This document shows, in pieces, positions 655 to 62,009 of a stretch of DNA of 64,000 nucleotides. The first letter of the stretch is position 1; each line of letters opens with the position of its first letter. Both the position numbers and the translations under genes were made by a program. Origin of the DNA: Periplaneta americana (lineage: Eukaryota > Arthropoda > Insecta > Blattodea > Blattidae); assembly GCF_040183065.1 (NCBI RefSeq), contig NC_091120.1, forward strand, positions 20,939,208 to 21,003,207, given 5' to 3'. The notes beneath the pieces are model-generated. The model was not told the origin of the DNA. It saw only the letters and a program-made list of their open reading frames with translations, and searched no databases.

Positions 655-3116
655 ATCTCAAATGAACTAATCGAACTAAATGATTAATTGCATAAGCTTT
701 TCTCAAACGAACTAAGCGAACTAAATGATTAATTGCATAAGTTTTTCTCAAACGAACTAAGCGAACTAAATGATTAATTGCATAAGCTTTTCTCAAACGA
801 ACTAAGCGAACTAAATGATTAATTGCATAAGTTTTTCTCAAACGAACTAAGCGAACTAAATGATTAATTGCATAAGCTTTTCTCAAACGAACTAAGCGAA
901 CTAAATGATTAATTGCATAAGCTTTTCTCGAACTAAGCGAACTAAATGATTAATTGCATAAGCTTTTCTCAAACGAACTAAGCGAACTAAATGATTAATT
1001 GCATAAGTTTTTCTCAAACGAACTAATCGAACTAAATGATTAATTGCATAAGCTTTTCTCGAACTAAGCGAACTAAATGATTAATTGCATAAGCTTTTCT
1101 CGAACTAAGCGAACTAAATGATTAATTGCATAAGCTTTTCTCAAACGAACTAAGCGAACTAAATGATTAATTGCATAAGTTTTTCTCAAACGAACTAATC
1201 GAACTAAATGATTAATTGCATAAGCTTTTCTCGAACTAAGCGAACTAAATGATTAATTGCATAAGCTTTTCTCAAACGAACTAAGCGAACTAAATGATTA
1301 ATTGCATAAGTTTTTCTCAAACGAACTAATCGAACTAAATGATTAATTGCATAAGTTTTTCTCAAACGAACTAAGCGAACTAAATGATTAATTGCATAAG
1401 TTTTTCTCAAACGAACTAAGCGAACTAAATGATTAATTGCATAAGCTTTTCTCAAACGAACTAAGCGAACTAAATGATTAATTGCATAAGTTTTTCTCAA
1501 ACGAACTAATCGAACTAAATGATTAATTGCATAAGTTTTTCTCAAACGAACTAAGCGAACTAAATGATTAATTGCATAAGTTTTTCTCAAACGAACTAAG
1601 CGAACTAAATGATTAATTGCATAAGTTTTTCTCAAACGAACTAAGCGAACTAAATGATTAATTGCATAAGCTTTTCTCGAACTAAGCGAACTAAATGATT
1701 AATTGCATAAGCTTTTCTCAAACGAACTAAGCGAACTAAATGATTAATTGCATAAGTTTTTCTCAAACGAACTAAGCGAACTAAATGATTAATTGCATAA
1801 GCTTTTCTCAAACGAACTAAGCGAACTAAATGATTAATTGCATAAGTTTTTCTCAAACGAACTAAGCGAACTAAATGATTAATTGCATAAGCTTTTCTCG
1901 AACTAAGCGAACTAAATGATTAATTGCATAAGCTTTTCTCAAACGAACTAAGCGAACTAAATGATTAATTGCATAAGTTTTTCTCAAACGAACTAATCGA
2001 ACTAAATGATTAATTGCATAAGCTTTTCTCGAACTAAGCGAACTAAATGATTAATTGCATAAGCTTTTCTCAAACGAACTAAGCGAACTAAATGATTAAT
2101 TGCATAAGTTTTTCTCAAACGAACTAATCGAACTAAATGATTAATTGCATAAGTTTTTCTCAAACGAACTAAGCGAACTAAATGATTAATTGCATAAGTT
2201 TTTCTCAAACGAACTAAGCGAACTAAATGATTAATTGCATAAGCTTTTCTCGAACTAAGCGAACTAAATGATTAATTGCATAAGCTTTTCTCAAACGAAC
2301 TAAGCGAACTAAATGATTAATTGCATAAGTTTTTCTCAAACGAACTAAGCGAACTAAATGATTAATTGCATAAGTTTTTCTCAAACGAACTAAGCGAACT
2401 AAATGATTAATTGCATAAGCTTTTCTCGAACTAAGCGAACTAAATGATTAATTGCATAAGCTTTTCTCAAACGAACTAAGCGAACTAAATGATTAATTGC
2501 ATAAGTTTTTCTCAAACGAACTAAGCGAACTAAATGATTAATTGCATAAGTTTTTCTCAAACGAACTAAGCGAACTAAATGATTAATTGCATAAGCTTTT
2601 CTCAAACGAACTAAGCGAACTAAATGATTAATTGCATAAGTTTTTCTCAAACGAACTAATCGAACTAAATGATTAATTGCATAAGTTTTTCTCAAACGAA
2701 CTAAGCGAACTAAATGATTAATTGCATAAGTTTTTCTCAAACGAACTAAGCGAACTAAATGATTAATTGCATAAGCTTTTCTCGAACTAAGCGAACTAAA
2801 TGATTAATTGCATAAGCTTTTCTCAAACGAACTAAGCGAACTAAATGATTAATTGCATAAGTTTTTCTCAAACGAACTAAGCGAACTAAATGATTAATTG
2901 CATAAGTTTTTCTCAAACGAACTAAGCGAACTAAATGATTAATTGCATAAGCTTTTCTCGAACTAAGCGAACTAAATGATTAATTGCATAAGCTTTTCTC
3001 AAACGAACTAAGCGAACTAAATGATTAATTGCATAAGTTTTTCTCAAACGAACTAAGCGAACTAAATGATTAATTGCATAAGCTTTTCTCAAACGAACTA
3101 AGCGAACTAAATGATT
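655..3116. repeat. 45-bp satellite array with 41-bp variants
   Basis: About 55 head-to-tail copies of a 45-bp unit containing CGAACTAAATGATTAATTGC. Linked variants are AAGCTT versus AAGTTT (a gained or lost HindIII site), AATCG versus AAGCG, and a 41-bp form lacking AAAC after TTCTC. Variants recur in blocks (41-mer, CTT unit, then GTTT units), so a higher-order repeat is present. 45 is a multiple of 3, so the minus strand shows pseudo-frames of a 15-residue repeat (RKTYAINHLVRLVRL), each broken at a 41-bp unit. I do not call these genes. The unit resembles the hAT end at 5488-5603. Confidence 0.95.
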
Positions 3117-7854: not shown

Positions 7855-7918
<64 letters not shown>

Positions 7919-7919
7919 T
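7855..7919. repeat. (ATT)n microsatellite
   Basis: About 21 uninterrupted ATT/TTA units ending where the 383-bp repeat begins. Confidence 0.95.
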
Positions 7920-8303
7920 CTCCGTTCCATTACTCTTTCATCGTATGATGACGCAGAATATCTGCATGGAAATGCCATATGTACTTCGGTACATTATAAT
8001 AATATATATATGATAAGCGTAAATCACTTCGTGATTTAAGACGGTGCTTATTCCGTCGGATCCCGGCCAACTAGCCACTCATTACGAGTGCACCTCAGCA
8101 CATGTGTGGACTTCGGTCTTAAGTTCATAGATATCTATGACGTAGTGCAGAGGGCGGCCACTAGAGGGAACCCAAGAGTTGGAACTTAAAACTGAGACGA
8201 TTCTTCCGACGCCGGGGTGGAATCCGGTGTGGCTTAGTGGATAAAGCGTCAGCACGTAGAGCTGAAAACCCGGGTTCAAATCCCGGCGCCGGAGAGAATT
8301 TTT
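7920..8303 (+). repeat. 383-bp tRNA-like repeat, unit 1
   Basis: First of two tandem units (third truncated from 8686). The unit starts TCCGTTCCATTACTCTTTC and ends with a tRNA-like domain at 8223-8293. That domain has box A (TGGCTTAGTGG), box B (GGTTCAAATCC), a 7-bp acceptor pairing (TCCGGTG/CGCCGGA), D, anticodon and T stems. The loop would present GTA but position 33 is C, so this is tRNA-derived rather than a working tRNA. A third dispersed copy lies at 41,013-43,150. A SINE-like or satellite-like nature is inference. Confidence 0.75.
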
Positions 8304-8685
8304 CTACGTTCCATTACTCTTTCATCGTATGATGACGCAGAATATCTACATGGAAATATCATATGTACTTCGGTACATTAAAATAATATATATGATATGC
8401 GTAAAACACTTCGTGATTTAAGACGGCGCTTATTCCGTCGGATCCCGGCCAACTAGTCACTCATTACGAGTGCACCTCAGCACATGTGTGGACTTCGGTC
8501 TTAGGTTCATAGATATCTATGACGTAGTGCAGAGGGCGGCCACTAGAGGGAACCCAAGAGTTGGAACTTAAAACTGAGACGATTCTTCCGACGCCGGGAT
8601 GGAATCCGGTGTGGCTTAGTGGATAAAGCGTCAGCACGTAGAGCTGAAAACCCGGGTTCAAATCCCGGCGCCGGAGAGAATTTTT
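8304..8685 (+). repeat. 383-bp tRNA-like repeat, unit 2
   Basis: Nearly identical to unit 1, with its tRNA-like domain at 8605-8675. A third unit starts at 8686 and stops after about 35 bp. Confidence 0.75.
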
Positions 8686-8721
8686 CTCCGTTCCATTACT
8701 TTTTCATCGTACTCTTTCATT

Positions 8722-10210: not shown

Positions 10211-12640
10211 GCTTCGTTTTGATCACCCGACTTTCCGCCCAGCGCTACATTGACTGTCAGGTGCAAACAAACTTCGTCTGGATCACCCGACTTTCTTCCC
10301 ATAGCTACATTGACTGTCAGGTGCAAACAAACTTCGTCTGGATCACCCGACTTTCTTCCCATAGCTACATTGACTGTCAGGTGCAAACAAACTTCGTCTG
10401 GATCACCCGACTTTCTTCCCATAGCTACATTGACTGTCAGGTGCAAACAAACTTCGTCTGGATCACCCGACTTTCCTCCCATAGCTACCCTGACTGTCAG
10501 ATGCAAACAAACTTCGTTTTGATCACCCGACTTTCCGCCCAGCGCTACATTGACTGTCAGGTGCAAACAAACTTCGTCTGGATCACCCGACTTTCTTCCC
10601 ATAGCTACATTGACTGTCAGGTGCAAACAAACTTCGTCTGGATCACCCGACTTTCTTCCCATAGCTACATTGACTGTCAGGTGCAAACAAACTTCGTCTG
10701 GATCACCCGACTTTCCTCCCATAGCTACCCTGACTGTCAGATGCAAACAAACTTCGTTTCGATCACCCGACTTTCCGCCCAGCGCTACATTGACTGTCAG
10801 ATGCAAACAAACTTCGTCTGGATCACCCGACTTTCCTCCCATAGCCACATTAACTGTCAGGTGCAAACAAACTTCGTTTTGATCACCCGACTTTCCGCCC
10901 AGCGCTACGTTGACTGTCAGATGCAAACAAACTTCGTCTGGATCACCCGACTTTCCTCCCATAGCTACATTGACTGTCAGGTGCAAACAAACTTCGTTTT
11001 GTTCACCCGACTTTCCACCCAGCGCTACATGACTGTCAGGTGCAAACAAACTTCGTTTCGATCACCCGACTTTCCACCCAGCGCTACATTGACTGTCAGG
11101 TGCAAACAAACTTCGTTTTGATCACCCGACTTTCCGCCCAGCGCTACATTGACTGTCAGGTGCAAACAAACTTCGTTTTGATCACCCGACTTTCCACCCA
11201 GCGCTACATTGACTGTCAGGTGCAAACAAACTTCGTTTTGATCACCCGACTTTCCGCCCAGCGCTACATTGACTGTCAGGTGCAAACAAACTTCGTTTTG
11301 ATCTCCCGACTTTCCGCCCAGCGCTACATTGACTGTCAGGTGCAAACAAACTTCGTCTGAATCACCCGACTTTCCTCCCATAGCCACATTGACTGTCAGG
11401 TGCAAACAAACTTCGTTTTGATCACCCGACTTTCCACCCAGCGCTACATTAACTGTCAGGTGCAAACAAACTTCGTCTGGATCACCCGACTTTCTTCCCA
11501 TAGCTACATTGACTGTCAGGTGCAAACAAACTTCGTCTGGATCACCCGACTTTCTTCCCATAGCTACATTGACTGTCAGGTGCAAACAAACTTCGTCTGG
11601 ATCACCCGACTTTCTTCCCATAGCTACATTGACTGTCAGGTGCAAAAAAACTTCGTCTGGATCACCCGACTTTCCTCCCATAGCTACCCTGACTGTCAGA
11701 TGCAAACAAACTTCGTTTCGATCACCCGACTTTCCGCCCAGCGCTACATTGACTGTTAGGTGCAAACAAACTTCGTTTTGATCTCCCGACTTTCCGCCCA
11801 GCGCTACATTGACTGTCAGGTGCAAACAAACTTCGTTTCGATCACCCGACTTTCCGCCCAGCGCTACATTGACTGTCAGGTGCAAACAAACTTCGTTTCG
11901 ATCACCCGACTTTCCACCCAGCGCTACATTGACTGTCAGGTGCAAACAAACTTCGTTTTGATCACCCGACTTTCCGCCCAGCGCTACATTGACTGTCAGG
12001 TGCAAACAAACTTCGTTTTGATCACCCGACTTTCCACCCAGCGCTACATGACTATCAGGTGCAAACAAACTTCGTTTTGATCACCCGACTTTCCGCCCAG
12101 CGCTACATTGACTGTCAGGTGCAAACAAACTTCGTTTTGATCACCCGACTTTCCACCCAGCGCTACATTGACTGTCAGGTGCAAACAAACTTCGTTTTGA
12201 TCACCCGACTTTCCGCCCAGCGCTACATTGACTGTCAGGTGCAAACAAACTTCGTTTTGATCACCCGACTTTCCACCCAGCGCTACATGACTATCAGGTG
12301 CAAACAAACTTCGTTTTGATCACCCGACTTTCTGCCCAGCGCTACATTGACTGTCAGATGCAAACAAACTTCCTTTCGATCACCCGACTTTCCTCCCAGC
12401 GCTACATTGACTGTCAGGTGCAAACAAACTTTGTTTTGATCACCTGACTTTCCGCCCAGCGCTACATTGACTGTCAGGTGCAAACAAACTTCCTTTCGAT
12501 CACCCGACTTTCCGCCCAGCGCTACATTGACTGTCAGGTGCAAACAAACTTCGTTTTGATCACCCGACTTTCCGACCAGCGCTACATTGACTGTCAGGTG
12601 CAAACAAACTTCGTTTTGATCACCCGACTTTCTGCCCAGA
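10211..12640. repeat. 60-bp minisatellite, about 40 copies
   Basis: Head-to-tail 60-bp units (GTGCAAACAAACTTCG ... GATCACCCGACTTTC ... ACATTGACTGTCAG). Two linked subtypes exist: A with GTCTGG and CTTCCCATAGC, and B with GTTTTG/GTTTCG and CCGCCCAGCGC. A-rich and B-rich blocks alternate. Three 59-bp units (near 11030, 12050 and 12288) lack one T and shift the phase. Since 60 = 3 x 20, long stop-free frames of 300+ codons exist on both strands (plus: ITRLSSHSYIDCQVQTNFVW repeat; minus: VCLHLTVNVALGGKSGDQNE repeat). I treat these as consequences of the period, not as genes. Confidence 0.95.
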
Positions 12641-25394: not shown

Positions 25395-27810
25395 ACAGTC
25401 TCTGTACTTTATTTTCAATGTCTCACAATCGTAACCGAAAACATGATAAGTTCTCAATCTAGGAGAAATGCTCGTGATAAGCGATAAAGTTGCAGAACTT
25501 ATAGCTTCAAAGCTGAAAGAGAAAAATCTGCTAGCTGCAGGACCCTACGTAACCTTTTACAGAAATCGAGAGAAAGATCTACAACAGTATTTTAGCAAGA
25601 AGACACTTTAGTGCATTGCACTGACATTCCAAACCCCATAAAATTTTAAGAGCTGAGCACAAAACAAATGAATGAAGGCTCTTCGTCGATTCAAGTATGA
25701 GAAGTTTAACAGTCTCTATACTTTATTTTCAATGTCTCACAATCGTAACCGAAAACATGACAAGTTCTCAATCAAGGAGAAATGCTCGTGATAAGCGATA
25801 AAGTTGCAGAACTTATAGCTTCAAAGTTGAAAGAGAAGAATCTGCTAGCTGCAGGAACACACGTAACCTTTTACAGAAATCGAGAGAAAGATCTACAACA
25901 GTATTTTAGCCAAGAAGACACTTTAGTATATTGCACTGACATTCCAAACCCCGTAAAATGTTAAGAGCTGAGTACAAAACAAATGAATGAAGGCTCTTCG
26001 TCGATTCAAGTATGAGAAGTTTAACAGTCTCTATACTTTATTTTCAATGTCTCACAATCGTAACCGAAAACATGACAAGTTCTCAATCTAGGAGAAATGC
26101 TCGTGATAAGCGATAAAGTTGCAGAACTTATAGCTTCAAAGCTGAAAGAGAAGAATCTGCTCGCTGCAGGAACCCACGTAACCTTTTACAGAAATCGAGA
26201 GAAAGATCTACAACAGTATTTTAGCCAAGAAGACACTTTAGTATATTGCACTGACATTCCAAACCCCATAAAATGTTAAGAGCTGAGTACAAAACAAATG
26301 AATGGAGGCTCTTCATCGATTCAAGTATGAGAAGTTTAACAGTCTCTATACTTTATTTTCAATGTCTCACAATCGTAACCGAAAACATGACAAGTTCTCA
26401 ATCTAGGAGAAATGCTCGTGATAAGCGATAAAGTTGCAGAACTTATAGCTTCAAAGCTGAAAGAGAAGAATCTGCTCGCTGCAGAAACCCACGTAACCTT
26501 TTACAGAAATCGAGAGAAAGATCTACAACAGTATTTTAGCCAAGAAGACACTTTAGAATATTGCACTGACATTCCAAACCCCATAAAATGTTAAGAGCTG
26601 AGTACAAAACAAATTAATGAAGGCTCTTCATCGATTCAAGTATGAGAAGTTTAAAAGGTGTGTTACTACATAATGGTAAACTTCTATCTCACCTACGATG
26701 AAGATTTCAAATATGTCTCTTTAACTTACAGGCTGAGGTGTAGAAGAAAGTGCTTCGCACAGCATTCCCATAAACACACCTGCACACCAAGACAGTCTCT
26801 GTACTTTATTTTCAATGTCTCACAATCGTAACCGAAGACATGACAAGTTCTTAATCTAGGAGAAATACTCGTGATAAGCGATAAAGTTGCAGAACTTATA
26901 GCTTCAAAGCTGAAAGAGAAGAATCTGCTAGCTGCAGGAATCTACGTAACCTTTTACAGAAATCGAGAGAAAGATCTACAACAGTATTTTAGCCAAGAAG
27001 ACACTTTAGTACATTGCACTGACATTCCAAACCCCATAAAATGTTAAGCGCTGAGTACAAAGCAAATGAATGAAGGCTCTTCATCGATTCAAGTATGAGA
27101 AGTTTAAAAGGTGTGTTACTACATAATGGTAACCTTCTATCTCACCTACGATGAAGATTTCAAATAGGGTAAACTAGGGTCTGTTGGACAGTCGGACATG
27201 TTGGACGCTCTGTACTTTAACGTGTTACCTCGCCACTTGTGGGCACCACATTCTGCTAGAAGTCAATGACGGAAATAGTCACGAGTGGGGCTACTTCCGT
27301 CATTGACTTCTAGCAGAATGTGATGCCCACAAGTGGCGAGGTAACACGTTAACGTACAGAGTGTCCAACATGCCCGGCTGTCCAACAGACAATAGTTTAC
27401 CCTATGTCTCTTTAACTTACAGTCTGAGATGTAGAAAAAAGTGCTTCGCACAGCATTCCCATAAACACACCTGCACACCAAGACAGTCTCTGTACTTTAT
27501 CTTCAATGTCTCACAATCGTAACCGAAAACATGACAAGTTCTCAATCTAGGAGAAATGCTCGTGATAAGCGATAAAGTTGCAGAACTTATAGCTTCAAAG
27601 CTGAAAGAGAAGAATCTGCTAGCTGTAGGAACCTACGTAACCTTTTACAGAAATCGAGAGAAAGATCTACAACAGTATTTTAGCCAAGAAGACACTTTAG
27701 TACATTGCACTGACATTCCAAACCCAATAAAATGTTAAGAGCTGAGTACAAAACAAATGAATGAAGGTTCTTCATCGATTCAAGGATGAGAAGTTTAAAA
27801 GGTGTGTTAC
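25395..27810 (+). repeat. six tandem copies of a coding segment (315 and 453 bp periods)
   Basis: Copies start at 25395, 25710, 26024, 26339, 26792 and 27483. The first four are spaced about 315 bp. The last two carry an extra 138 bp (containing AAGATTTCAAATATGTCTC) giving 453, and the final spacing of 691 equals 453 plus the 236-bp MITE and its TA. Each copy encodes LVISDKVAELIASKLKEKNL and FYRNREKDLQQYF. Confidence 0.92.
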
Positions 27811-41012: not shown

Positions 41013-41209
41013 CTCTGGATGTAGGTTCCATTGTGCCACTGTCATACATCTGTGACGCAGTGCATGAGGGTAGGCCACTAGAGGGAACCCAAGAGGTGGA
41101 ACTTAAACTGAGAGGATTCAATCCGACATCGGAATGGGAATCCGGTGTGGCTTAGTGGATAGAGCGTCAGCACGTAGAGCTGAAAACCCGGGTTCAAATC
41201 CCGGTGCCG
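41013..41209 (+). repeat. 383-bp-type tRNA-like repeat, left part
   Basis: Third copy of the repeat seen at 7920-8685, including GGCCACTAGAGGGAACCCAA and the tRNA-like domain from 41141. Cut at 41,209 in its acceptor region by the Transib-like element. The rest is at 43,051. Confidence 0.85.
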
Positions 41210-41224
41210 CACAGTGGTCTAGAA

Positions 41225-42330
41225 TGCAAATTTAGCGGGACATTATTAATAACTTTTCAGCTACCTAACAGATTTTTATGAAATTTTACACAGTAGTTAC
41301 TGGTAGCATATATGTTTTGTATGCAAGCTCTCGTTACGTTGGTATAAGGGGAACTACCCCTTATAGGGGGGCGCAATAAGACAAAATTAGAAACTTTTCT
41401 CTTATCTGACAGATTTTTATGAAATTTTAGAAAACAGTTACAAGTAGCATTTATGTTTTGTATTAAAGCTCTGATTACGTTGGTATAAGGGGAACTACCC
41501 CTTATAGGGGGCGCAATTAGACAAAATTAGTAACTTTTCTTCTATTTAACAGATTTTTATGAAATTTTACACAGCAGTTACAGGTAGCATATATGTTTTG
41601 TATACAAGCTCTCGTTACGTTGGTATAAGGAGAACTTAACAGATTTTTATAAAATTTTACAAAGCAGTTACAAGAAGCATATATGTTTTGTATACAAGCT
41701 CTGATTACGTTCGTATAAGGGGAACTACCCCTTATAGAGGGCGCAATTAGACAAAATTAGTAACTTTTCTCCTATTTAACAGATTTTTATGAAATTTTAC
41801 AAAGTAGTTACAGGTAGCATGTATGTTTTGTATACAAGTTCTCGTAACGTTGGTATAAAGGGAACTACCCCTTATAGGGGGGCGTAATTAAACAAAATTA
41901 GTAACTTTTCTCCTATTTGATAGATTTGCATGAAATTTTACGAAACAGTTACAAGGAACATATATGTTTTGAACACAAGCTCTGATTACGTTGGTATAAG
42001 GAGAACTACCCCTTATAGGGGGCTCAATTAGACAAAATTAGTAACTTTTCTCCTATTTAACAGATTTTTATGAAATTTTACAAAGTAGTTATAGGTAGCA
42101 TGTATGTTTTGTATACAGGCTCTCATTACGTTGGTCTACGTGAAGCTACCCTTTATAGGGGGGCGCAATTAGACAAAATTAGTAACTTTTGTCCTATCTA
42201 ACAGATTTTTATGTAATTTTATACAGTAGTTACACTTAGTACATTTGTTTTGTGTACAAACTCTGTTTACGTTGGTATGAGCAGACGTGCCCCTTACAGG
42301 GGGATGCATTTAGACAAAATCTTATAGGGG
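41225..42330. repeat. 141-bp tandem repeat, about 7.5 copies
   Basis: Units contain AACAGATTTTTATGAAATTT, GCATATATGTTTTGTATACA and GGGGAACTACCCCTTATAGG (the last is a short palindrome). Landmarks at 41351, 41492, 41722, 41862 and 42003 give the 141-bp period. One unit (about 41630) lacks the GAACTACCCC segment. Confined to the Transib-like element. Confidence 0.9.
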
Positions 42331-42514
42331 GGGGGGGAAATGTAACATTTTAGGTACTATTGCACCTTTTGGGCACTCGGGAAACTTATTTGGTACATAA
42401 TTAACAAGCTGTCATCTTGAATTCCCTGAATTATGCTGCGGAAGCAGATTCGGTTCACAGATATTGAAATAATTGTAACCGAGAAAAATTGCACTACTGC
42501 ACCTCGAAAGAATA

Positions 42515-42927
42515 GTGCTCATAAATTATTACTTCCGCAAATCTGCGCACCTTAAGACTAGATTTAAAATAGAGGTAAATAGTGGAGGAAGTGAAAAAAA
42601 AATCATTTTTGGACGAACCAAAGGGGTTTTTTTTCTCTACCTTAGCAAAGTCTGCACTCAATGGTTATATTTATATTTTGTCCCGTGTCCATTCATGCTA
42701 ATTTTACATACTATAATGGCATTAAATGTAACAAAAACAAACAGTGTTACATACCTAAAGAATTACTTGACATGTTGATACCAAATATGAATGGAATCGA
42801 CCACTTACAACAGAGTTACAGAACAAGGAAAACGGCAGACTCTCGGCGCTTGCTGAGTAAGAATGCTGGGTGGCGAAATGTGGCATGTTACCGGCTTCTT
42901 ATCTCGCTATGCAGCCACCTCCGCTGA
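42515..42927 (+). other. unrecognised frames inside the Transib-like element
   Basis: Two overlapping frames (42515-42778, 87 codons; 42661-42927, 88 codons). The second contains KQCYIPKELLDMLIPNMNGI and SYRTRKTADSRRLLSKNAGW. I cannot match either to a transposase. The change of frame near 42,700 may reflect a frameshift in one ancestral gene. Confidence 0.3.
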
Positions 42928-43050
42928 TTAACATAATCAATTGAGTGTTACTCAGTTATATAGGAAAAATAATTTAAGGGTTTAATTTCATTTTTTTATG
43001 TGTCATTTTTCTGCATTTGTCCTCCTAAATATGGATTTTAAACCACTGTG

Positions 43051-43150
43051 TGCCGGAGGGAATTTTTCTCAGTTCCACTCATCCTTCATCACATGATGAC
43101 GCAGAATTACTGCATTGTACTTCGGTACATCGTAATATATTCCGATATCT
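43051..43150 (+). repeat. 383-bp-type tRNA-like repeat, right part
   Basis: Resumes with TGCCGGAGGGAATTTTTCTC and continues through ATGATGACGCAGAAT and GTACTTCGGTACAT as in the 7.9-8.7 kb copies. Note GTACTTCGGTAC, a small palindrome conserved in all copies. Confidence 0.85.
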
Positions 43151-44798: not shown

Positions 44799-45955
44799 AA
44801 CTTATGGCTTTTAAGGAACCCGGAGATTCATTGCCGCTCTTATATAAGCCCGCCATCGGTCCCTATCCTGAACAAGATTAATCCAGTCTCTACAATCATA
44901 TCCCACCCCCATCAAATCAATTTTATATTATCCTCCCATCTACGTCTCGATCTCCCCAAAGGTTTTATTCCCTCCGGCCTTCCAATTAACGTTCTATATG
45001 CATTTCATCCATACATGCTACATGCTCTGCCCATCTCAAACGTCTGGATTTAATGTTCCTAATTATGTCAGGTGAAGAATACAACGCGTGCAGTTCTGTG
45101 TTGTGTAACTTTCTCCATTCTCCTGTAACTTCATCCCTCTTAGCCCCAAATATTTCCTAAGCATATTATTCTCGAACACCCTTAACCTCTGTTTCACTCT
45201 CAAAGTGAAAGTCCAAGTTTCACAACCATACAGAACAACCAGTAATATAACTGTGTTATAAATTCTAAATTTCAGATTTTTTGACAGCAGACTAGATGAC
45301 AAAAGCTTCTCAATAGAATAATAACAAACATTTTCTCATATTTATTCTTAGTTTAATTTCCTCCCGAGTGTCATTTATATTTTTATTGTTGCTCCAAGAT
45401 ATTTGAACATTTTTACCATTTCAAAGGATAAATTTCCAATTTTTATATTTCCATTTCTTACTATGTTTTGGTCACGAGACAAAATCATATACTTTTTCTT
45501 TTCGGGATTTACTTTCAAACCTATTCCATTACTTGCTTCAAGTAAGATTCCCGTGTTTTCCCTAATATTTTGTGGATTTTCTCCGAACATATTCACGTCA
45601 TCCGCATAGACAAGCAGCTGATGTAACCCGCTCAATTCCAAACCCTCTCCGTTATCTTGGACTTTCCTAATGACATATTCTAGAGCAAAGTTAAAAAGCA
45701 AAGGTGATAGTTGACCTCCTTGCTTTAGCCCGCAGTGAATTGGAAAAGCATCCGACAGAAACTGGCCTATACTGACTCTGCTGTACGTTTAACTGAGACA
45801 CATTTTAATTAATCGAACTAGTTTCTTGGGAATATCAAATTCAATAAGAATATCATGTAAAGCTTCTCTCTAAATCAAGTCAAATGACTTTTTGAAATCT
45901 ATGAATAACTGATGTATTGTACCCATACATTTCCATTTTTTCTCCAACATCTGTC
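44799..45955 (-). mobile_element. RTE-like retrotransposon (family A), 1.16 kb
   Basis: Minus-strand 5'-truncated copy running from the [13 protein letters not shown]-like motif-A region (right end) through the YADD region to the C-terminus near 44,810. An (AAT)n tract borders its 5' end. It has little of the usual TAAG tail. Confidence 0.85.
44815..45930 (-). pseudogene. family A reverse transcriptase, decayed
   Basis: Blocks in order: FIDFKKSFDL (motif A altered), a [20 protein letters not shown]-type motif B at 45.7 kb, [15 protein letters not shown] (YADD intact, 45375-45701 frame), [12 protein letters not shown], and [39 protein letters not shown] (45063-45302). Several frame changes and stops, including after the YLGA block. 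Catalytically dead as a whole. Confidence 0.82.
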
Positions 45956-60747: not shown

Positions 60748-62009
60748 AAGATTAACTCCGTACGTAGATGAAATTATTGGGGATCATCAGTGCGGTTTTC
60801 GACGTAATAGATCGACTATTGATAAGATTTTTTGTATTCGACAGATAATGGAGAAAAAATTGAAGTATAAGGGTACAGTACATCAGTTATTCATAGATTT
60901 CAAAAAGGCATATGACTCGGTTAAGAGGGAAGTATTATATGATATTCTTATTGAATTTGGTATTCCCACGAAACTAGTTCGATTAATTAAAATGTGTCTC
61001 AGTGAAACATACAGCAGAGTCGGTATAGGTCAGTTTCTATCTGATGCTTTTCCAATTCACTGCGGGCTAAAGCAGGGAGATGCACTATCACCTTTACTTT
61101 TTAACTTCGCTTTACAATATGCCATTAGGAAAGTTCAGGATAACAGGCAGGGTTTGGAATTGAACGGGTTACATCAGCTGCTTGTCTATGCGGATGACGT
61201 GAATATGTTAGGAGAAAATACACAAACGATTAGGGAAAACACGAAAATTTTACTTGAAGCAAGTAAAGCGATCTGTTTGGAAGTAAATCCCGAAAAGACA
61301 AAGCATATGATTATGTCTCGTGACCAGAATATTGTACGAAATAGAAATATAAAAATTGGAGATTTATCCTTCGAAGAGCAGGAAAAATTCAAATATCTTG
61401 GAGCAACAGTAACAAATATAAATGATACTCGGGAGGAAATTAAACGCAGAATAAATATGGGAAATGCGTGTTATTATTCGGTTGAGAAGCTCTTATCCAG
61501 TCTGCTGTCCAAAAATCTGAAAGTTAGAATTTATAAAACAGTATATTACCGGTTGTTCTGTATGGTTGTGAAACTTGGACTCTCACTCTGAGAGAGGAAC
61601 ATAGGTTCAGGGTGTTTGAGAATAAGGTGCTTAGGAAAATATTTGGGGCTAAGCGGGATGAAGTTACAGGAGAATGGAGAAAGTTAAACAACACAGAACT
61701 GCACGCATTGTATTCTTCACCTGACATAATTAGGAACATTAAATCCAGACGTTTGAGATGGGCAGGGTATGTAGCACGTATGGGCGAATCCAGAAATGCA
61801 TATAGAGTGTTAGTTGGGAGACCGGAGGGAAAAAGACCTTTAGGGAGGCCGAGACGTAGATGGGAGGATAATATTAAAATGGATTTGAGGGAGGTGGGAT
61901 ATGATGATAGAGACTGGATTAATCTTGCACAGGATAGGGACCGATGGCGGGCTTATGTGAGGGCGGCAATGAACCTTCGGGTTCCTTAAAACCCATTAGT
62001 AAGTAAGTA
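60748..62009 (+). mobile_element. RTE-like retrotransposon (family A), best-preserved copy
   Basis: 5'-truncated in the RT finger region and complete at the 3' end with a TAAG-type tail. Other copies in the window appear as fragments of this sequence. Confidence 0.9.
60749..61989 (+). pseudogene. family A reverse transcriptase, one frameshift
   Basis: Open from 60749 to 61591. [20 protein letters not shown] precedes the ATG at 60848. From that [13 protein letters not shown] (residues 15-24, motif A Asp17), [17 protein letters not shown] (73-89, motif B), VYADDVNM (113-120, motif C), [24 protein letters not shown] and [12 protein letters not shown] single missing T near 61542 (TVILPV block) shifts the frame. 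The second part (to 61989) carries [25 protein letters not shown]-type (altered to GYVAR) and MNLRVP. The N-terminal endonuclease is absent. All RT motifs are intact before the frameshift. Confidence 0.9.

Follow-up and report, generated by a model that had tools for sequence, protein, structure and literature searches.

A gene-less element in a Periplaneta americana genome window is very probably a copy of a non-autonomous Transib family

In a 64,000-nt stretch of Periplaneta americana DNA (NC_091120.1), here called the window, the element at positions 41210–43050 belongs, with a probability of about 0.95, to a Transib family that is non-autonomous and gene-less; transposons of this kind are known. 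We make this assignment because the ends of the element, its 5-bp target duplication, the CGNCG target of the family and the Transib transposases encoded by the host all agree with the Transib membership claimed in the original prediction. The vertebrate antibody-gene recombinase RAG1 is believed to have its origin in the Transib group of transposons. Many hundreds of copies, apparently without genes, are present in the host genome, the window element among them.

Both ends of the element start with CACAGTG, and when the left end (from 41210) is aligned with the reverse complement of the right end (from 43050), 27 of 33 positions match. On re-check, the coordinates, the heptamer, this match count and the TGCCG duplication all proved to be exact as originally given. 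A degenerate 18-base pattern of the ends, allowed up to three mismatches, matched the window at the two ends of the element and nowhere else; shuffled versions of the window gave a mean of 0.20 matches, with two matches in 2 of 100 shuffles. The window is rich in repeats and contains further inverted pairs that match at 27 or more of 33 positions, so the case for the element rests jointly on its ends, the duplication and the empty site. Among the stop-to-stop frames of the element, of which the longest spans 99 codons, we saw none that resembles a transposase, in keeping with the earlier statement that no transposase is recognisable there.

Table 1. Coordinates of the element, its parts and the interrupted SINE in the window
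Feature	Position	Strand	Basis and remarks
5′ part of interrupted tRNA-derived SINE	41048..41209	+	ARAGORN fold; 90% identity to 8515–8673; gap-free junction
TGCCG, left copy of 5-bp target duplication	41205..41209	+	Flank sequence
Non-autonomous element, very probably Transib-type	41210..43050	+	1,841 bp; ends, 5-bp duplication, family relatives
Left terminal inverted repeat, begins CACAGTGG	41210..41242	+	27/33 match to right end; conserved in 52 family left ends
Internal minisatellite, unit about 141 bp	41245..42320	+	Tandem Repeats Finder
Non-repetitive right part, 721 bp, common to the family	42330..43050	+	74 matching rows in fetched DNA, counting the window's own copy and some overlapping loci (long segments, n = 49)
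Right terminal inverted repeat, starts CACAGTGG read inward	43018..43050	-	27/33 match to left end; conserved in 47 family right ends
TGCCG, right copy of 5-bp target duplication	43051..43055	+	Flank sequence
3′ part of interrupted SINE	43056..43130	+	Similarity to window SINE copies; empty-site alignment

The element interrupts a tRNA-derived SINE, in whose 5′ part ARAGORN recognised a tRNA-Tyr-like fold at 41141–41212. When the two flanks were joined with a single TGCCG and compared with the SINE copies at 8133–8378 and 8515–8708, the junction was free of gaps, and the identities were 83.6% and 88.4%, respectively. The original prediction held that splicing the flanks restores the repeat exactly; the restoration itself stands on the gap-free junction, but the word exactly is slightly strong for these identities and for uninterrupted copies that carry CGCCG where both flanks of the element have TGCCG. 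Because the empty SINE copies have CGCCG and both flanks share the T, this base was probably present in the SINE copy before insertion. The empty-site copies come from a tandem of a 382-bp SINE-holding unit at 7917–8711 (2.1 copies, 96% matches).

Other features of the window include long tandem arrays at 656–3116, 10212–12639 and 25395–26654, with units of 45, 60 and 315 bp. In the 60-bp array both strands have long open frames, which a unit length divisible by three can produce by itself. The open frames at 60749–61591 (+) and 45375–45788 (-) resemble reverse transcriptase and contain a YADD motif; they probably belong to a non-LTR retrotransposon.

The original prediction had proposed searching the host genome for other copies, and we did so over 3.23 Gb (91 contigs) with a 26-base end pattern that was allowed up to three mismatches, using the reversed pattern as a control. 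The end pattern occurred at 1,539 places (773 + 766), compared with 3 (1 + 2) for the control. An end-pattern search of viral contigs gave 0 matches. The 100 places that were listed out of the 1,539 come from C1, C2 and the beginning of C3 and are all free of mismatches, so the sample favours young copies. From these we fetched 50 loci covering 55 of the 100 places, without any SINE sequence in the query (the ends-only sample), and obtained 25 two-ended copies, of which 20 are independent after removal of 5 with a flank that had already been counted.

Total length differs between copies, the measured ones being 1.3–2.6 kb long. Among neighbouring listed ends no more than 20 kb apart there were 30 pairs, 28 of them at 1.3–2.3 kb, one at 2.95 kb and one at 14.5 kb. 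Taking 770 elements at about 1.85 kb each, we estimate that the family perhaps totals about 1.4 Mb. Over the right 721 bp, 49 copies have a median pairwise identity of 95.25%; assuming a star-like burst, independent copies would lie about 2.4% from their common source. The closest pairs without common flanks are about 98% identical, and the four pairs above 98% have common flanks. Two loci about 70 kb apart on C1 (L053 and L055) are 99.9% identical over the 721 bp and have the same flanks, and are probably a recent segmental duplication. Five further copies (L069–L073) have identical flanks, ...GGCAACG/CAACGGTAC..., so that either the locus was duplicated afterwards or the insertions struck another repeat. 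The titles and abstract openings of literature on Transib contained no description of the family, a faint hint that it is unpublished.

We next consider the transposases. Searched with the Pfam RAG1 profile, the host genome showed 32 weak matches, none above the cut-off, and 15 of them lie within 519-codon open frames; the same profile had no matches in 14 control genomes. Translation of one transposase copy (L079) yielded a protein of 504 aa, P0001, whose residues 20–473 match one PDB sequence (6pqn, 6pqr, 6pqu, 6pqx, 6pqy, 6pr5) with E = 3.4e-109. We take the solved protein of 6pqn, 6pqx, 6pqy and 6pr5 to be HzTransib. A figure legend in PMC11844651 names 6PQX, 6PQY and 6PR5 as Transib complexes. 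Against the Pfam RAG1 profile P0001 scores 25.5 bits (cut-off 25). Its residues D99, D205 and E413 align with D, D and E of RAG1, presumably the catalytic residues of that protein.

A search of the genome with P0001 gave at least 91 matches (85 of 3,852 candidates scored); at least 17 of the 91 cover residues 1–504 without a stop, and at least 7 further stop-free matches have 44–50% identity. Transib frames in the 44–51% identity range include those at C9:51623056 and C9:94326823 and a group of three copies on C3, C14 and C13. The host thus encodes many Transib transposases, the kind of protein that the original prediction had proposed to look for. The first residues of P0001 adjoin other repeat sequence, so the true start may be elsewhere. 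At the downstream end of the L079 copy (L080:38 onwards), the P0001 element reads CACAGTGGGGTATTTGCATC inward and adjoins CGTCG. This single end read, which starts CACAGTGGGG..., has CACAGTGG in common with the window family at its start, and the sequence beyond differs. With its CACAGTGG end and CGTCG flank, the P0001 element is thus a Transib that has, at the one end read, the heptamer and target of the window family. Among viral contigs, P0001 yielded 5 pattern matches, none of which was confirmed as a relative.

Target site duplications were assessed in the 20 independent copies of the ends-only sample. The 5-bp flanks are identical in 13, differ by one mismatch in 5 and are unmatched in 2; one of the unmatched copies (L074) has 4 bp (AGGC) common to both sides, possibly a 4-bp duplication. 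When the right flanks were permuted (20,000 shuffles), a mean of 2.6 and a maximum of 11 identical 5-bp flanks were obtained, compared with the 13 observed. With the boundary placed at CACAGTGG, identical flanks of 6–10 bp occurred in 0/20 copies. Among 52 distinct flanks from 68 ends, the base frequencies of the target are C 0.92, G 0.83, any base at the middle position (each at 0.23–0.27), C 0.87 and G 0.87, and 32 of the 52 are exactly CGNCG. The window copy's own target, TGCCG, is one base off. The Transib target site is likewise given as CGNCG in the text of PMC4735498 and in a table row of PMC5704228. Alignment of the duplications over copies, as had been proposed, therefore yields 5 bp with the consensus CGNCG and none of 8 bp.

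These data bear directly on the other classes to which such ends could be assigned. The sequence CAGTGG within the ends resembles hAT termini, and a hAT element would be bounded at CAGTGG, make 8-bp duplications and be moved by a hAT transposase. Duplications of 8 bp, exact or with one mismatch, were found in 0/20 copies with the boundary at CAGTGG and in 0/20 with the boundary at CACAGTGG, whereas the latter boundary gave 5-bp duplications in 13/20 exactly and in 18/20 within one mismatch; the target, moreover, is CGNCG. The original prediction had named 8-bp duplications in other copies, together with a hAT transposase partner, as grounds for abandoning Transib; none of the 20 copies has such a duplication, and a hAT origin is left with next to no probability. 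A relic of a RAGL transposon (RAG1L + RAG2L), as opposed to Transib proper, would also fit the ends and the duplication length, since a passage of PMC7204232 describes heptamer-like ends and 5-bp duplications for RAGL elements. However, the one fetched transposase scores 369 bits with the Transib structure, its closest match, and 28 bits with RAG1L, from which it is remote. RAG1 chains also scored weakly, and we consider such a relic highly improbable.

The insertion into a SINE raised two further readings. Our first genome query consisted of 151 bases, 60 from the SINE and 91 from the element. Of its 1,044 candidates 40 places were scored, every one spanning the SINE–element junction; all 20 loci fetched from it had tRNA-like left flanks. 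In this SINE-rich set (the window plus 20 loci), both ends lay within the fetched stretch in 17 of 21, and the 5-bp flanks of these 17 were identical in 13, one base off in 2 and further off in 2. A DNA transposon of the Dada kind, specific for tRNA-like sequence and striking one place in SINE heads, would account for the shared junction and the tRNA-like flanks. The apparent specificity arose because the query, with its 60 bp of SINE, selected SINE insertions: in the ends-only sample SINE- or tRNA-like flanks occur at 10 of 68 ends (7 of 50 loci), as scored against three reference heads, one of which (L032) came from the sample itself, and the common target feature is CGNCG. Strict SINE/tRNA specificity is refuted, and we have rejected SINE-specific targeting; given 10/68 SINE-like ends and the CGNCG consensus, the SINE is one common carrier of CGNCG-like sites. 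Dada elements also lack terminal inverted repeats and make 6–7 bp duplications, according to a passage of PMC3706591, and a Dada-like origin is very unlikely.

Alternatively, the SINE and the element could have been copied jointly as one composite instead of by many insertions. Many loci do have the same junction, the right flanks of L019 and L023 are alike, and L053/L055 and L069–L073 each have both flanks in common. Against this stand the 5-bp flanks, which covary on the two sides (TGCCG, CGCCG, TGGCG), the different tRNA-like heads that were struck (L026–L028) and the 58 of 68 ends in the ends-only sample that have no SINE-like flank. Composite copying explains a few loci only and is refuted as the main mode by the independent flanks, so that as a general account it has almost no probability left. 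L019 and L023 are diverged copies whose right side is similar non-SINE sequence and not the SINE remainder, as if a rearranged composite was copied.

Returning to the reading of the element as a non-autonomous Transib, its mobilisation in trans, as originally proposed, can fairly be inferred because no gene is seen in it. A Transib transposase supplied by another locus of the genome would recognise the CACAGTGG ends and would excise the element by RAG-like cut-and-paste chemistry; joining into a GC-rich CGNCG-like site would then produce the 5-bp duplication, the site in the window copy being TGCCG within the tRNA-like head of a SINE.

We therefore looked for a transposase copy with the family's whole terminal inverted repeat (TIR) and found none among 100 of the 1,539 end places and one transposase-element end. 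We compared the 100 listed ends with 10 transposase copies on C1 and C2, setting aside two second fragments that belonged to copies already counted. One copy is 1.4 kb from an element, on its outside, and the rest are at least 300 kb from any listed end. The near one (G000:C2:73127347-73131811), a disrupted Transib transposase frame with 47% identity to P0001, lies 1.4 kb outside the left end of a family copy, either by chance or as an old neighbour. We also used a pattern that joins the TIR core of the family to another interior and that is blind to a partner with a divergent TIR or with more than about 40 bp of end in common with the family; it matched 7 places in the genome compared with 12 for the control, and by eye none of the 7 is near a match of the P0001 protein search. 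Transib transposases, as anticipated in the original prediction, are in the genome; this limited search revealed none with the same whole TIR.

It is conceivable, though unlikely, that no dedicated partner exists and that the family is mobilised by a Transib transposase whose requirements hardly go beyond CACAGTGG. The P0001 family would be an example; the one known end of its element has only CACAGTGG (8 bases) at its start in common with the family. If true, this would be a natural case of the RAG1 lineage recognising ends by little beyond the heptamer. The family is a large natural substrate set (1,539 end matches) for a RAG1-related transposase and, together with the host transposases (at least 17 copies of one transposase without a stop over the whole query, and at least 7 stop-free matches at 44–50% identity), forms a good dataset on the end and target bases that the RAG1 lineage needs.

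The heptamer of the element ends, CACAGTG, is identical to the consensus heptamer of the V(D)J recombination signal sequence (RSS), as stated in an excerpt of PMC8289069. A nonamer at 23 bp had also been claimed. ACA is indeed present 23 bp from each heptamer; with a 23-bp spacer, consensus ends built from 52 left and 47 right family ends match the RSS nonamer ACAAAAACC at 4/9 positions on the left and 6/9 on the right. However, shuffled subterminal consensus sequence reaches 6/9 with P = 0.067 at spacer 23 and P = 0.33 over spacers of 12 and 23 ± 1, so the resemblance at one end is within chance and we rejected an RSS nonamer. The element is RSS-like by its heptamer, with no nonamer demonstrated, and in lacking a significant nonamer it resembles Hztransib, whose ends are described in the same excerpt (PMC8289069) as having heptamer similarity and little or no nonamer similarity.

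Compared with known systems, the window family has the CACAGTG-type ends, 5-bp duplication and CGNCG target of the Transib superfamily, and such a transposase is present in its host. It differs in having no visible gene, a length of 1.3–2.6 kb and, in the window copy, a minisatellite; Hztransib of Helicoverpa zea, by comparison, is given in a passage of PMC1852546 as 3,518 bp with a 489-aa frame. The end of the P0001 Transib and the TIR of the family differ beyond CACAGTGG. With Dada the window copy shares residence of a DNA transposon in tRNA-type sequence, the Dada sites being tRNA genes, but Dada combines the absence of TIRs and 6–7 bp duplications with strict RNA-gene targets (PMC3706591), whereas the family has TIRs, 5-bp duplications and 10/68 SINE/tRNA-like ends. 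Further parallels are insect Transib-type MITEs, which are likewise gene-less with inverted ends (passages of PMC9033116 and PMC5199201) and for which a passage of the Helicoverpa MITE survey reports 5-bp duplications (PMC9033116). In an excerpt on iMITEdb, Transib-type MITEs are rare, with a mean length of about 482 bp and 0.19 Mb over 98 insect genomes (PMC5199201); the window family, at about 1.8 kb, 1,539 end matches and perhaps 1.4 Mb, exceeds these values, the length limits of iMITEdb aside. Taken by itself, the element is typical of its class, and the amount of the family seems high for Transib-type non-autonomous elements.
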